A stretch of 21,139 nt of DNA, from IMG/VR virus record IMGVR_UViG_3300025030_000454, positions 1 to 21,139 of that record, one strand, 5' to 3'. Positions 14,398 through 21,139 of the stretch are shown piece after piece. Each line of letters begins with the position of its first letter. The stretch's first letter is position 1. This DNA is from a virus. The notes beneath the pieces were generated by a model. It saw only the letters and a program-made list of their open reading frames with translations. It did no database searches and was not told the DNA's origin. Position numbers and translations under genes: made by a program.

Positions 14398-14598
14398 CTA
14401 TTTCTTATGAAAAATTTTATAAAAAAATCCTTTTTTTTGGGGTTGTTTCTCGTCCACTAAACTTTGTTTTTCATAAAGAACTATCGCTTCATCAATTTTT
14501 CGCTTTGCTAAGTCAGTGAGTCTTGACTTGCTATTTTTTTTTGTCATTAAACTAACTCCGAATAGGATTTTAGCTAATTTTCTCCATAAGTTATCCAT
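14398..14598 (-). CDS. Small basic hypothetical protein
   Basis: The 66-residue Lys-rich product begins MDNLWRKLAKILFGVSLMTK and ends KGFFYKIFHKK. AGGAG lies six bases before the ATG. It has an amphipathic N-terminal helix and a helix TDLAKRKIDEAIVLYEKQS. It sits between the acidic-repeat protein and gp36. I do not recognise it, and it has no obvious enzyme motif. An in-frame ATG at codon 18 (MTKKNSK) lacks a good ribosome-binding site. Confidence 0.65.
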   Translation of the reverse strand: MDNLWRKLAKILFGVSLMTKKNSKSRLTDLAKRKIDEAIVLYEKQSLVDEKQPQKKGFFYKIFHKK

Positions 14599-14622: not shown

Positions 14623-15030
14623 CTATAAAACACCTTTAGGTAATCCCTCATTTGTTTTTTTTAAACCTTTTTTAATTTCCTCTTTGTCAGAGTCATCTTT
14701 TGGAGGTTCTTTAGAATCCTCTTTGTCAGAGTCATCTTTTGGAGGAACTTTAGAATCCTCTTTGTCAGAGTCATCTTTTGGAGGAACTTTAGAGTCCTCT
14801 TTGTCAGAGTCATCTTTTGGAGGAACTTTAGAGTCCTCTTTGTCAGAGTCATCTTTTGGAGGAACTTTAGAGTCCTCTTTGTCAGAATCATCTTTTATAA
14901 TTTCAATTAATTTAGCACCTCCACTTTCAATTAATGAAAGTGCTTTTTTTTCTTCTATAATAAGCTCAGTTCCTTTTGAGATAGTTCCTTTTTCATTTTT
15001 AACAAAGCCTATTATTTTTATTTTATACAT
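14623..15030 (-). CDS. gp35-position protein with acidic 13-residue tandem repeats
   Basis: The 135-residue product has a compact N-terminal domain of about 46 residues (MYKIKIIGFVKNEKGTISKG, ending ESGGAKLIEI) followed by six tandem blocks around DDSDKEDSKVPPK and a basic ending (KGLKKTNEGLPKGVL). The N-terminal part resembles the small beta-rich domain with a 'G...e.....l.a...i' helix seen in Mu gp35 and FluMu relatives, which lies at this place after the capsid gene. The repeats are strongly acidic and probably disordered. Whether it is a virion component is unknown. The TAATG overlap with the capsid stop and GGAGGGGG upstream support the start. Confidence 0.8.
   Translation of the reverse strand: MYKIKIIGFVKNEKGTISKGTELIIEEKKALSLIESGGAKLIEIIKDDSDKEDSKVPPKDDSDKEDSKVPPKDDSDKEDSKVPPKDDSDKEDSKVPPKDDSDKEDSKEPPKDDSDKEEIKKGLKKTNEGLPKGVL
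14678..14896. repeat. 39-bp tandem repeat array inside the gp35-position gene
   Basis: Five full 39-bp units start at 14678, 14717, 14756, 14795 and 14834, with a partial sixth of about 24 bp from 14873. Units differ by only a few bases (for example agaatcc/agagtcc and one Val/Glu codon), so the array looks young. The period is a multiple of three, so unit gain or loss keeps the reading frame. Confidence 0.9.
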
Positions 15031-17366: not shown

Positions 17367-17526
17367 TAGATTCCTCCTGATTACCACATTCTTTATCCAT
17401 TACATGTAATTTGTCAGAAAGTGGAATTTTTGGAACTACTCCATGTATTAAATGATTAATTCCATGAGCAATATTTACCAACCCTGTTTTTGTGTTATAA
17501 ATTAAATGTTTTAAATATTTTCTCAT
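17359..17526 (-). CDS. Small hypothetical protein between amidase and protease
   Basis: A 55-residue gene, MRKYLKHLIYNTKTGLVNIA, followed by HGINHLIHGVVPKIPLSDKL and ending CGNQEESNA. The ATG overlaps the amidase stop as ATGA, and its end overlaps the protease start by eight bases. This tight packing supports a real gene although no strong ribosome-binding site is seen. The N-terminal 35 residues are amphipathic rather than clearly membrane spanning, so a holin is doubtful. Function unknown. Confidence 0.68.
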   Translation of the reverse strand: MRKYLKHLIYNTKTGLVNIAHGINHLIHGVVPKIPLSDKLHVMDKECGNQEESNA

Positions 17527-18053
17527 GTTTTGTTATAAACCTCTTTTTTAAAGGCATCCCATTCTTTAGAGTTTTCAACAAAAAATCTGTGACAGTTTTT
17601 ACCCGTAACGTCATAATGCAAGTAAACATCTTTTTGAGCATCAAGATTGTATCTTCTGCACAAATCCGTAGTTAAAGAAACTAAAGATTCGTATGTACTT
17701 GAGTTCATGACTCCGTTATCGTTGATGTGACAACATTCTATACCTATAGTGCAATCATTTGGATATGAAGATAGATTTTTCAAAGCAATTTCTTTATATA
17801 CTTTTGCTCCAACATGATATGCCATTTCGTTTTCTGGAATACATCTTATTACTTCACCTTTTAGCCCAATGATATAATGAGCAGAGCCATAATCAGATTT
17901 TCCGTCTTTTCTGTTTTCAAAAAAATTTCTGTTTTGCGCTGCCGTTGTATTTTTATTTGCAACATAATGTATTACAAGCCCTTTGACGGCACTGAGTGGC
18001 TTTTCTGGTCTACTAAATTGGTTTGGAGTTAAAAGCATTTCTTTTATAGTCAT
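17523..18053 (-). CDS. N-acetylmuramoyl-L-alanine amidase (endolysin)
   Basis: The 176-residue product has one Amidase_2 (T7 lysozyme type) domain. His29 in VIHYVAN, His146 and Cys154 in LHYDVTGKNCHR fit the zinc ligands, and Lys152 sits between them. His146-Lys152-Cys154 has the same 6- and 8-residue spacing as T7 lysozyme H122, K128 and C130. SAHYIIGLKGEVIRC is the substrate-binding loop block, and IECCHINDNG the 'GIE......g' strand. It cleaves peptidoglycan for lysis. There is no signal peptide, so a holin or similar is needed. The start (18053) has AGGAGA upstream, but this lies in a hairpin arm; the TTG at 18092 would precede that hairpin and seems unlikely. Confidence 0.92.
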   Translation of the reverse strand: MTIKEMLLTPNQFSRPEKPLSAVKGLVIHYVANKNTTAAQNRNFFENRKDGKSDYGSAHYIIGLKGEVIRCIPENEMAYHVGAKVYKEIALKNLSSYPNDCTIGIECCHINDNGVMNSSTYESLVSLTTDLCRRYNLDAQKDVYLHYDVTGKNCHRFFVENSKEWDAFKKEVYNKT

Positions 18054-18221: not shown

Positions 18222-18428
18222 ATGAAAAAAATAATAGCAATTTTAATAATTGCGTCTATTTTGATATGTGCTTTTATAGCACTTCCAAAAATTTTAAAAA
18301 GAAACGACTCAACTAAAAACAACGCAATCAAAGAGTTAGAAGAAAGGACAGATACAAATGAAGAAACTAATAATAATGATGTTACTTTTGATAGTATCAT
18401 CAATGGCAACATACTCAAAAAATATTAA
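18222..18428 (+). CDS. Small single-pass membrane protein
   Basis: The 68-residue product has an N-terminal membrane segment (about residues 4-21, IIAILIIASILICAFIAL), a basic patch KILKR and a charged tail rich in Glu, Asn and Thr. CGGAGA precedes the ATG at 18222. It lies across from the amidase and overlaps the next gene by 71 bases in another frame. A holin-like, inner-membrane spanin-like or release role is possible. The Cys near residue 16 follows a poor lipobox (ILIC), so a lipoprotein is doubtful. An earlier start at 18174 would be non-ATG and has no site. Confidence 0.7.
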   Translation: MKKIIAILIIASILICAFIALPKILKRNDSTKNNAIKELEERTDTNEETNNNDVTFDSIINGNILKKY

Positions 18429-18963
18429 AAAAATTGATTTTATTGAGTATGTCAAGAAAAGTGATGATGAAAAATATTCACTACTACTAACATACAGAAA
18501 AAATCAATTGAAGATAAGTCTTGATGAGTTTAAAAAGAAAAGTGAGCATGAAAAATATTTACTACTAGAAAAGTACATAGAAACCCCATCAAAAATAACA
18601 TTAGAAGATTTCAAAAAAAAGGGTGATTTCGAAAAATATATAATTTTACAAATAACTGTATCTGAAACTATCAAATATAGAAATCTCTTTACAAGCCAAT
18701 TAGAGATTTCAAAACTTGCATTTAAGGGATTAGAAGCAAAGAGTAAAAAGTTTGGAATCTCTTTTTCGGCTGGCTATGATTTATCGATGAAATCGAATTC
18801 AGAGATTTTTAATACTTTTAATTTTTACAATGATTATTATATTTTCTTATCAAAATATATTTTCATTATACCTGGTCTAAAAATAGATATGAATTATAAA
18901 CTATTTGATACATCTGTATTTTGGGGCGGTGGAATAAAGTTCGGTTTTGGAGTAATGTTTTAA
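18358..18963 (+). CDS. Exported protein with three helical repeats and a beta-strand C terminus
   Basis: The 201-residue product begins with a clear signal peptide, MKKLIIMMLLLIVSSMATYS. Three imperfect repeats of about 27 residues follow (about 24-105), each with a 'D/E-F-x-x-x-K-K-x-x-x-x-E-K-Y-x-x-L' core: FIEYVKKSDDEKYSLL, DEFKKKSEHEKYLLL and EDFKKKGDFEKYIIL. The last 70 residues (FGISFSAGYDLSM ... WGGGIKFGFGVMF) have alternating hydrophobic strands, Gly turns and a terminal Phe, as outer-membrane barrel proteins do. The gene starts inside the previous one, with AAGGA nine bases before the ATG. It is not a lipoprotein. A role in lysis, or in protecting the lysogen at the surface, is a guess. 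Confidence 0.75.
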   Translation: MKKLIIMMLLLIVSSMATYSKNIKKIDFIEYVKKSDDEKYSLLLTYRKNQLKISLDEFKKKSEHEKYLLLEKYIETPSKITLEDFKKKGDFEKYIILQITVSETIKYRNLFTSQLEISKLAFKGLEAKSKKFGISFSAGYDLSMKSNSEIFNTFNFYNDYYIFLSKYIFIIPGLKIDMNYKLFDTSVFWGGGIKFGFGVMF

Positions 18964-18974
18964 GGAGAATGTTA

Positions 18975-19781
18975 ATGCTGCCAGAAATCAATAATGTAAA
19001 TGCGACTATAACGTATCTTGGGCTTGGGTTAATACTTGCTAGTCTAGTTGTTTTCTTAGTAATTAAATTTACAAGTAAACTAACAAAAATACCAAAAATA
19101 AAAGCTTCTCTTGGAGGAAATGAAATAGAGATAGGAAGCGATACAGACAAAGAAAACCTTCAATCAACAGATGAAATAGTATATATCAATACTGAAGTAG
19201 TGGATGATCTTGACAAATATTCATCTCAATTGAGCAAAGTAAATAACATTGATCATCTATATCGACAGATGAGGGAGTCTGAAGAAGGAATAAATGTACT
19301 GAATTGCATTTTAAAAGAGCATTTTTCTGAAAGATTAAATAAATATATTTTAGAAAAAACCTTAGTTTTTTCTGAGTCAAAAACTCAAGCATCTGAAGAA
19401 TATTATTCATTCTTACTTGAAAAAATATCAGAAGAAAATAAGAAAAAGTTAAAAATATTTATAATAGAAAACGGATTTGATGAATATACTGAGGCTGGGT
19501 TTGAAGAATACAAAAAAAATAAACTCGAAGTTTTTATGGCGACTGTTAAAGATATAAAAAAAGCTAAATATAAAACTGAAATTCTATTAGTTCCTGAATC
19601 GTTTCAGGAGAAAGAAAATGTTGATTTTATAAATGAAGCAATGAAAAAACATACTTACAAAATTTTAGACAGGGTAAGACTAAACGCGATTGACCACAAG
19701 CGAATAAAAAATAGTCTAGAAGAAAAAATTCAACAATTAAAAACTGAAGTGAAAGAGATGATTAAGGGAAATAATAAATGA
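18975..19781 (+). CDS. Membrane-anchored protein of unknown function
   Basis: The 268-residue product has one membrane helix at about residues 12-30 (TITYLGLGLILASLVVFLVI), then a basic stretch and a long, charged, mostly helical soluble part. The end (about 225-268, DHKRIKNSLEEKIQQLKTEV) is a likely coiled coil. AAGGAG lies seven bases before the ATG at 18975. It lies between the exported protein and the small terminase, overlapping the latter by ATGA. The context and N-terminal anchor allow a holin-like or lysis regulator role, but this is larger than most holins. I do not recognise it. Confidence 0.72.
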   Translation: MLPEINNVNATITYLGLGLILASLVVFLVIKFTSKLTKIPKIKASLGGNEIEIGSDTDKENLQSTDEIVYINTEVVDDLDKYSSQLSKVNNIDHLYRQMRESEEGINVLNCILKEHFSERLNKYILEKTLVFSESKTQASEEYYSFLLEKISEENKKKLKIFIIENGFDEYTEAGFEEYKKNKLEVFMATVKDIKKAKYKTEILLVPESFQEKENVDFINEAMKKHTYKILDRVRLNAIDHKRIKNSLEEKIQQLKTEVKEMIKGNNK

Positions 19782-20275
19782 AAAAAGACATTGATAATAA
19801 TATAGATGAAAAGCGAATAAAAGCATACAGATTATACACTGAAAATAGAAAAAGAATTGAAGAGATTGCGAAAGAATTAGGTTGCTCAATATCAACTATA
19901 TACAGATACAAACAAGAAGATAAAGAAAATGATATTGATTGGGACGCAGACAGAAACTTGCTTAGTTTGTCACCAGACGAAATTAAAAATCGACTTTTTT
20001 CATCAATTGCTAAAATATTAATTGAAACTCAAAAAACAAAAAAACCCATAGACTCAAAACAAGCAGATGCGTTATCTAAATTGTATGGAATAGTAAAAAA
20101 AGTTTATCCCAAAGACATTGTTTTTGGCGTAATAATTGATGTGCTAAAAATTATTTCTGAAGATATGGAAATCTATAAAAAACTTGATCCTGATTTCTAT
20201 AAGAAATTCAAAGACAGATTACCTTCGATACAAGAAAAAATTGAAAAATCTTACGCACTGGTATTTGAAGAATGA
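19778..20275 (+). CDS. Small terminase subunit-like protein, DUF1804-type helix-turn-helix
   Basis: The 165-residue product has an N-terminal helix-turn-helix: AYRLYTENRKRIEEIAKELG and then CSISTIYRYKQED (about residues 16-48), followed by WDADRN. This is the pattern of DUF1804-type phage proteins and of small terminases that recognise packaging sites. The remainder is helical (IKNRLFSSIAKILIETQKTK, then SKQADALSKLYGIVKKVYPK), suitable for oligomerisation. It overlaps both neighbours by ATGA and lies immediately before the large terminase, which supports the call. Transposable phages package from the phage end into host DNA, so this protein would recognise a site near the other end. Confidence 0.83.
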   Translation: MKKDIDNNIDEKRIKAYRLYTENRKRIEEIAKELGCSISTIYRYKQEDKENDIDWDADRNLLSLSPDEIKNRLFSSIAKILIETQKTKKPIDSKQADALSKLYGIVKKVYPKDIVFGVIIDVLKIISEDMEIYKKLDPDFYKKFKDRLPSIQEKIEKSYALVFEE

Positions 20276-21139
20276 CAAAAAGTCGACAAAAGAAAATCAA
20301 AAATCTTACTCAATTCTATAAAGAATGGGACAGTCTCGTATCTGAAATAGAAGCCGGTTCCTGTTTTGATGACAATTCAGAAAAAGCAAAAGAAAAAAGA
20401 ATTAAAAAATCAGAAGATGATTTACTATATTTTGCAAAAACTTATTTCCCTGACTATTTTAGAAATAAATCTCCAAAATTTCATAAGGAGTGGGAAGAAC
20501 TCACAAAAAATAAAGGAATGATACAGCTGGTATTAGCTTCAAGAGGTCTTTCAAAATCAACTTTTTTCACTCTTGTATTCGCACTTCATGGAGTGCTTTT
20601 TGGTCAAAGTAAATTTACTTTGATTGGTTCTTATGTTGAAGATAAAGCGTCTGTTTTTACTGGTAGAATTTTATTGGAACTAAAATACAATCCAAGAATA
20701 TTAAATGATTTTGGTGATTTGATTAAATCATCTTTAAAAAAAAGTGTAAAACATTTTTCTATAATCTCACCAATCAAAAAAGTTGTTTGTACCATCAAAG
20801 CTATCTCTATTCTACAAGACCCAAGAGGTTTGATTTCTGGACCATTCAGACCAGATAGAGTCATTCTTGATGATGTACAAAATAGAAAACGAGCAAAAAG
20901 TGAAAAGTGGGTTGAAAATGCGCTTGAATGGATTCAGTTAGACTTGATCCCAGCTTTAGAACCAGATGTTTATGTTTGTATAGTGGTCGCAACGCCAATG
21001 CACGACAATTGCCTTGTTTGTCAGTTAGAGCGAGGAAACGAAGAAAATGAGATTGATCCAGTATTTACAAAAAAATACCCTGCGATTGATAGTGACGGGA
21101 AGTTGATGTGGCCTGAAAGATTTCCACAAGCGACATTAG
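20272..21139 (+). CDS. Large terminase subunit (ATPase part; continues beyond window)
   Basis: The first 289 residues are present. LVLASRGLSKSTFF (about 86-99) holds a Walker A of the 'asRG.sKST' type found in Mu gp28-like terminases. RVILDDVQNRKRAKS (Asp200, Asp201) is the Walker B with the following arginine-rich coupling segment. FAKTYFPDYFRNKSPKFHKE before it is the usual 'f...fFp..f..p.f...H.e' adenine-binding lead-in, and VVATPMHDNCL is motif III-like. The nuclease domain would follow right of the window. The ATG overlaps the small terminase stop as ATGA. It powers DNA packaging into the procapsid. Confidence 0.93.
   Translation, partial: MTKSRQKKIKNLTQFYKEWDSLVSEIEAGSCFDDNSEKAKEKRIKKSEDDLLYFAKTYFPDYFRNKSPKFHKEWEELTKNKGMIQLVLASRGLSKSTFFTLVFALHGVLFGQSKFTLIGSYVEDKASVFTGRILLELKYNPRILNDFGDLIKSSLKKSVKHFSIISPIKKVVCTIKAISILQDPRGLISGPFRPDRVILDDVQNRKRAKSEKWVENALEWIQLDLIPALEPDVYVCIVVATPMHDNCLVCQLERGNEENEIDPVFTKKYPAIDSDGKLMWPERFPQATL

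Follow-up and report, generated by a model that had tools for sequence, protein, structure and literature searches.

The closest described counterparts of the locus considered here are two-component spanins, whose genes are either embedded, as in lambda Rz/Rz1, or overlapped, as in P2 LysB/LysC (Kongari et al. 2018, PMC6139136). The sections of that survey drawn on here report 528 two-component systems in 677 genomes, with all catalogued outer-membrane subunits (o-spanins) found through the lipobox and with 91 phages (about 13%) having no recognisable spanin. They also allow that an outer-membrane protein (OMP) could act as an o-spanin, such topologies lying outside the search and being missed by its criteria. 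The unimolecular spanin T1 gp11 combines a lipid at the N terminus with a transmembrane helix at the C terminus in a single protein, as described in the same sections (PMC6139136).

Transposable prophages of Leptospira are of the Mu-like myophage type, with divergent arms and with lysis genes that are hard to recognise (PMC8705779). In the parts of that study used here, lysis genes were predicted by lipobox and embedded-gene criteria, a procedure that would miss a lipid-free exported subunit of the type described below, and no protein resembling it is described. Judging from titles and the beginnings of abstracts, we recognised no paper on a non-lipoprotein o-spanin.

Here, we report an analysis of an overlapping gene pair in the IMG/VR virus record IMGVR_UViG_3300025030_000454, of which the whole 21,139-nt stretch (positions 1-21,139) is referred to as the window. 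The window has a G+C content of 0.304, encodes Mu-like proteins (a DUF2586 sheath, Baseplate_J and Phage_cap_E) and is part of a Mu-like myophage. A contig of 27,103 bases (G001) overlaps it and adds Portal_Mu, Phage_Mu_F, MuA-like and MuB-like proteins and a Mor activator. Over the region common to both, identity exceeds 99.9%, apart from a 39-bp repeat of which G001 has one copy fewer. The repeat, in tandem (13 aa, DDSDKEDSKVPPK), lies in a small gene adjoining the capsid gene (14623-15030, minus strand), and its copy number varies, given that the G001 copy is 39 bp shorter. To the right of the window, the early region of this phage on G001 has a Radical_SAM protein gene (L050:1117-2031) beside a Cro/CI-like HTH gene. 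A promoter scan gave no excess of sites (13 versus 10.7 expected).

The window phage is probably a bacterial virus of spirochaetes. The diderm host originally predicted gains indirect support from the four relatives of the exported protein, all of which come from genomes that share a phylum with a Spirochaetaceae genome. A Fusobacteriota host, suggested by the best MuA match (27%), was dropped: phiRTG5 has no visible pair of this kind, and the terminase large subunit (TerL) and the exported protein point to Spirochaetota. The amidase was likewise rejected as a host marker, its relatives sitting in phages with Firmicute-like neighbour genes in the four loci read.

The pair consists of ORF A (18222..18428, plus strand; 68 aa, ATG start), a candidate inner-membrane partner in the i-spanin slot, and ORF B (18358..18963, plus strand; 201 aa, ATG start), an exported, cysteine-free product in the o-spanin slot. 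As predicted from the sequence, B starts inside A in another frame, and the pair lies opposite the endolysin, an Amidase_2 protein encoded divergently at 17523..18053 on the minus strand (family match, E 6.4e-26). Downstream on the plus strand come a protein of 268 aa that has a hydrophobic segment at the N terminus and no family match (18975..19781), possibly a holin or lysis accessory; a DUF1804, terminase small subunit-like protein (19778..20275), the downstream anchor of the slot; and TerL (20272..21139), which continues past the window end. Relatives encode another membrane protein in the position of the 268-aa protein. The A-B pair stands at the head of the terminase/portal operon.

A has a hydrophobic segment near the N terminus (about aa 4-22) followed by a hydrophilic tail, and its hydropathy predicts an inner-membrane protein anchored by an N-terminal helix; positive charges flank the segment on both sides, which leaves the topology ambiguous. 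B opens at nucleotide 137 of A and is read in the +1 frame relative to it, and the 71-nt overlap (18358..18428, plus strand) encodes the whole signal peptide of B together with the tail of A, the A frame reading hydrophilic throughout. Purine-rich, ribosome-binding-like sequences precede the starts of A (cGGAGActaaacATG) and B (aAGGAcagatacaaATG).

B contains no cysteine, has a signal peptide at about aa 1-17 judged by hydropathy and a cleavage-site-like sequence, and shows by eye no second hydrophobic helix. Three 27-aa repeats follow (aa 25-51, 52-78 and 79-105; 18430..18672, plus strand) with the motif [EDY][FY]xKK[SG]xxEKY, and a repeat HMM matched four stretches in B. The repeats noted in the original prediction are real, but they do not define the protein: the motif is single-copy in the four other family members, and the triplication is a local duplication particular to the window phage. 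The C-terminal domain (aa 131-201; 18748..18960, plus strand), rich in aromatic residues and glycine and ending in ...GGGIKFGFGVMF, has a sequence pattern that suggests about four amphipathic strands. Neither A nor B matches a Pfam or PHROG family, and a search of PDB sequences with B gave one match, at E 0.54, which was ignored.

The nature of the slot emerges from phages with related terminases. A sheath profile led to closer phages, three of them with a 42% identical TerL, and a TerL profile then delineated a clade of 12 members, comprising the window, a prophage in the Spirochaetota genome G125 (G125a) and 10 further contigs; slot counts cover 11 of these, L275 being excluded for having no DNA upstream of TerL. 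Each of these 11 has an ORF with a hydrophobic N terminus and, overlapping it in the +1 frame, an ORF for an exported product; the overlap measures 71 nt in the window, 83 nt in G125a, 203 nt in L283 and 68-98 nt in the remaining eight. The pair precedes a membrane protein, DUF1804 and TerL, with one extra gene between in G125a. Eight of the 11 encode as their second product a lipoprotein o-spanin of the classical kind, about 100 aa long, and relatives with a lipoprotein spanin pair in this exact slot have TerL proteins 40-42% identical to that of the window. Two members, the window and the spirochaete prophage G125a, have the beta type without a lipobox. The second product of L276 matches PHROG "Rz-like spanin" families (E 6.3e-6 and 0.002), its first product matches another such family (8.7e-4), and the second product of L278 matches weakly (0.011). 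A broader screen covered 125 TerL loci of greater distance, each with no fewer than 2,500 bases upstream, and a count by eye gave 17 coding-strand pairs that resemble Rz/Rz1 and have lipoprotein signals. Taken together, the clade pairs, the PHROG matches and the distant pairs identify this position as a spanin slot.

Several other loci deserve mention. In L283 (IMGVR_UViG_3300050581_000140), the spanin slot (L283:4595-5126) holds an exported, non-lipoprotein second product with a C-terminal membrane segment (phrog_38323), a second lipid-free variant in the clade, with a topology like the type I mentioned in the consulted sections of Kongari et al. (PMC6139136). In Spirochaetaceae Mu-like loci, nested ORFs lie upstream of TerL (L112:5798-6193 and L124:6229-6624); one product runs from a signal peptide through a middle part resembling a coiled coil to a membrane segment at the C terminus, and the other has its membrane segment at the N terminus. 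No recognisable lysis slot was seen upstream of TerL in the deltaproteobacterial matches, as far as these loci were listed.

We consider A and B to be, probably, a spanin-type lysis pair with an outer-membrane subunit held by beta strands. The likeness to Rz/Rz1 and the unusual outer-membrane disruption that had been proposed are borne out to the extent that relatives carry lipoprotein pairs in the same slot, one with PHROG "Rz-like spanin" matches. Homology of A and B to the lipoprotein spanins of the clade was considered and left unproven: alignments were no better than shuffles and HMM searches missed the proteins, A ranking 377th against the i-spanin HMM of the clade, with no detectable homology to the i-spanins of relatives. 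Because the products have no detectable similarity to spanins and structure prediction failed, we infer both the function of the pair and the barrel. As the lipoprotein criterion of two-component spanins fails for B, the pair is treated as a variant of the spanin kind and is not filed as a member.

In the TerL tree, the window groups with G125a (support 100/99) within the 12-member clade (100/100). Beside them, in no settled order, stand the lipoprotein-bearing L274 and L278 and a group of eight that includes the lipoprotein-bearing L276, L277 and L279-L282 together with L275 and L283. The simpler reading of this tree, although not a proof, is that the beta type would have replaced a lipoprotein o-spanin in the shared ancestor of the window phage and G125a.

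The B family comprises five members, the window protein and four relatives in three Spirochaetota genomes (G095, G099 and G125, the last with two copies). As the sole query, B retrieved nothing beyond the near-identical contig G001, and a match at E 0.23 was ignored for its internal stops. A TerL search of 392 Spirochaetota genomes yielded one related prophage, in G125 (47% identity), whose overlapping pair is of the type without a lipoprotein; B profiles then gave the second G125 copy (contig C44; G125b) plus one each in G095 and G099. A five-row B profile recovered the same four relatives and no others in 383 genomes; in 299 Pseudomonadota genomes it gave nothing at E 0.01, an empty answer that proves little. 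Matches in the AT-rich spirochaete genomes G195 and G165 (E 0.001-0.003) were rejected as small unrelated ORFs.

Window B aligns with G095 B (30% over 128 residues, E 7e-10) and G095 B with G099 B (E 2e-11), whereas the pairwise comparison of window B with G125a B is not significant (E 0.18); a profile of the three window repeats nevertheless ranked G125a B third among 18,498 ORFs, the window copy counted. G095 contains a near relative of the window phage, with a 47% identical sheath, a homologous protease and the same divergent layout. The gene that immediately follows B in G099 encodes a homologue (60% over 50 aa) of a 66-aa protein from the capsid operon of the window (14398-14598, minus strand); lysis and head genes have therefore undergone reshuffling. 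In G125a, G125b and G099, the gene adjacent to B, or the next one along, encodes a 175-176-aa protein (L270:9411-9941, L312:510-1040 and L332:6581-7108), whose L270 copy matches phrog_26752 (unknown function). It has an H...S.GC spacing that we take to be like that of L,D-transpeptidases, and it may be the endolysin of these three phages.

The claim that B is not a lipoprotein fits its sequence pattern, which recurs in relatives. A six-frame lipoprotein scan of the window and G001 gave no candidate preceded by a ribosome-binding-like site; two window matches to the lipoprotein signal lack such a site and lie opposite large late genes, in antisense orientation. Applied to the eight lipoprotein relatives, the scan recovered the o-spanin in seven, missing that of L274. 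Neither A nor B of the window has a periplasmic cysteine, which weighs against the spanin reading, as only about 4% of two-component spanins are without one in the consulted part of the survey (PMC6139136).

The alternative to a lipid is an anchor of beta strands. Outer-membrane beta-proteins are expected to follow a C-terminal pattern rule, which we formulated, after seeing B, as an aromatic last residue with hydrophobic residues at -3/-5/-7/-9 and non-hydrophobic residues at -4/-6/-8. By this rule, the window, G095 and G125b proteins score 4, G125a scores 3 and G099 scores 0; among 7231 control ORFs with lengths of 100 aa or more, none scores 4 and 30 score 3. Over the last 70-72 residues, all five proteins shift sharply in composition, becoming poor in lysine and glutamate, with 19-27% aromatic residues and 11-14% glycine. 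Only for window B is the beta-moment clearly above that of shuffles (9 of 1000); the corresponding values for the others are 30, 47, 86 and 210 of 1000.

It is possible, though unlikely, that the pair is of the spanin type with B periplasmic or peripheral, working through attachment to the outer membrane or to a protein in it. The slot and the overlap fit this arrangement as well, and AF2 predictions from single sequences contain no strands, although with mean pLDDT values of 35 and 48 they are uninformative. The G099 protein has an off-pattern C terminus that is unlike a beta-signal; it also has a cysteine near the end of the signal peptide and could be a lipoprotein. Against a periplasmic B speak the C-terminal pattern found in four of the five members and rare among controls, and the sharp compositional shift common to all five. 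Of the original description of a barrel-like C terminus ending in phenylalanine, the sequence pattern stands and recurs in relatives, but the quality of structure prediction was too low for strands to be seen.

An improbable reading takes A for a holin or antiholin and B for an unrelated exported protein whose start falls within A by chance, outer-membrane disruption being encoded elsewhere or unneeded in a spirochaete. The window amidase has no other obvious holin beside it, and the A counterparts of G125a and G125b have two hydrophobic segments (that of G099, an ORF of 46 aa, has none that is clear). However, the gene before A in G125a is a separate holin-like gene, homologous to the one preceding the L280 i-spanin (E 1e-8), the +1 overlap is kept in the B family as well as in the lipoprotein relatives, and B fills the whole o-spanin slot.

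Superinfection exclusion, also raised in the original prediction, found no positive support; that the pair serves exclusion or envelope modification during lysogeny is very unlikely. B is an exported, probably outer-membrane protein of a temperate Mu-like phage, as this function would suggest, but the pair heads the terminase/portal operon in what is the lysis slot of relatives, away from the repressor. The phage exclusion lipoproteins Cor and Llp are small, lipidated outer-membrane proteins made in lysogeny, whereas B has no lipobox.

Dual coding can be assessed in the two G125 copies. In the first 57 nt of the overlap, G125a and G125b are identical at 47 positions (82.5%), compared with 124/226 (54.9%) in the part coding for A only and 249/376 (66.2%) in that coding for B only; mismatches at third codon positions of B number 3/19 in the overlap and 66/126 outside. 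Such constraint is expected of two overlapping frames and supports dual coding. Given that B has homologues and that dual coding is supported in two related prophages, the arrangement exceeds chance. The notion that only B is a gene, overlapped by a chance ORF, appeals to the shortness and poor conservation of A, for which no alignment with its G095 counterpart was found, but it is scarcely credible in view of this constraint, of the A-like ORF that overlaps the start of B in the +1 frame in all five members and of the ribosome-binding-like site before A.

Under the preferred reading, that of a spanin-type pair with a beta-anchored subunit, the N-terminal helix of A would fix this protein in the inner membrane, and B is exported by the signal peptide encoded in the tail of A. 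The C-terminal domain of B, of 70 residues, would insert in the outer membrane as beta strands, presumably guided by the aromatic C-terminal beta-signal. Since each chain would supply only about four strands, B would have to oligomerise. Its helical N-terminal part, longer here by two extra repeats, would span the periplasm back to A; about 45 residues of A and 110 of B are available, within the reach of 62-300 residues given for spanins in the consulted part of the survey (PMC6139136). By analogy with lipoprotein spanins, removal of peptidoglycan by the amidase could allow the complex to collapse, joining or tearing the membranes. We see about an even chance that B is the first example of a third kind of spanin subunit for the outer membrane, in which an oligomeric beta-protein took the place of the lipoprotein o-spanin but kept the overlapped gene slot, in spirochaete Mu-like phages. 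If so, some phages counted as spanin-less may use subunits like B.

Trimeric autotransporter-type anchors contribute four strands per chain. With these, and with outer-membrane beta-barrel proteins that carry a C-terminal beta-signal (BAM substrates), B shares a signal peptide, a helical stalk, about four putative strands and an aromatic end; no homology to B was found in PDB sequences, Pfam or PHROGs. The window phage resembles the Leptospira transposable prophages, as far as the consulted account describes them, in its Mu-like myophage type, probable spirochaete association, divergent arms and hard-to-recognise lysis genes. T1 gp11, according to the sections cited above, has the membrane-linking role that we propose for A and B and also has predicted beta structure, but the window encodes two proteins without lipid, and B has neither a lipid nor a C-terminal helix. 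The overlapped two-component spanins are closest: the inner-membrane gene comes first; the gene for the exported partner begins within it, shifted to +1, and encodes its signal peptide in the overlap; and the neighbourhood is that of lysis. B differs from their second products in having no lipobox or N-terminal cysteine, in its length (201 aa), in its helical repeats and beta-type C-terminal domain, and in sharing no sequence similarity with them. The locus is a concrete candidate for the OMP-type o-spanin that Kongari et al., in the sections considered here, allowed but had not found. It suggests a search rule for spanin-less phages, namely an exported protein with a C-terminal beta-signal that overlaps a small membrane gene in the lysis slot, and, with lipoprotein-bearing sister phages in the same slot, it makes lipid and beta-strand anchors directly comparable.
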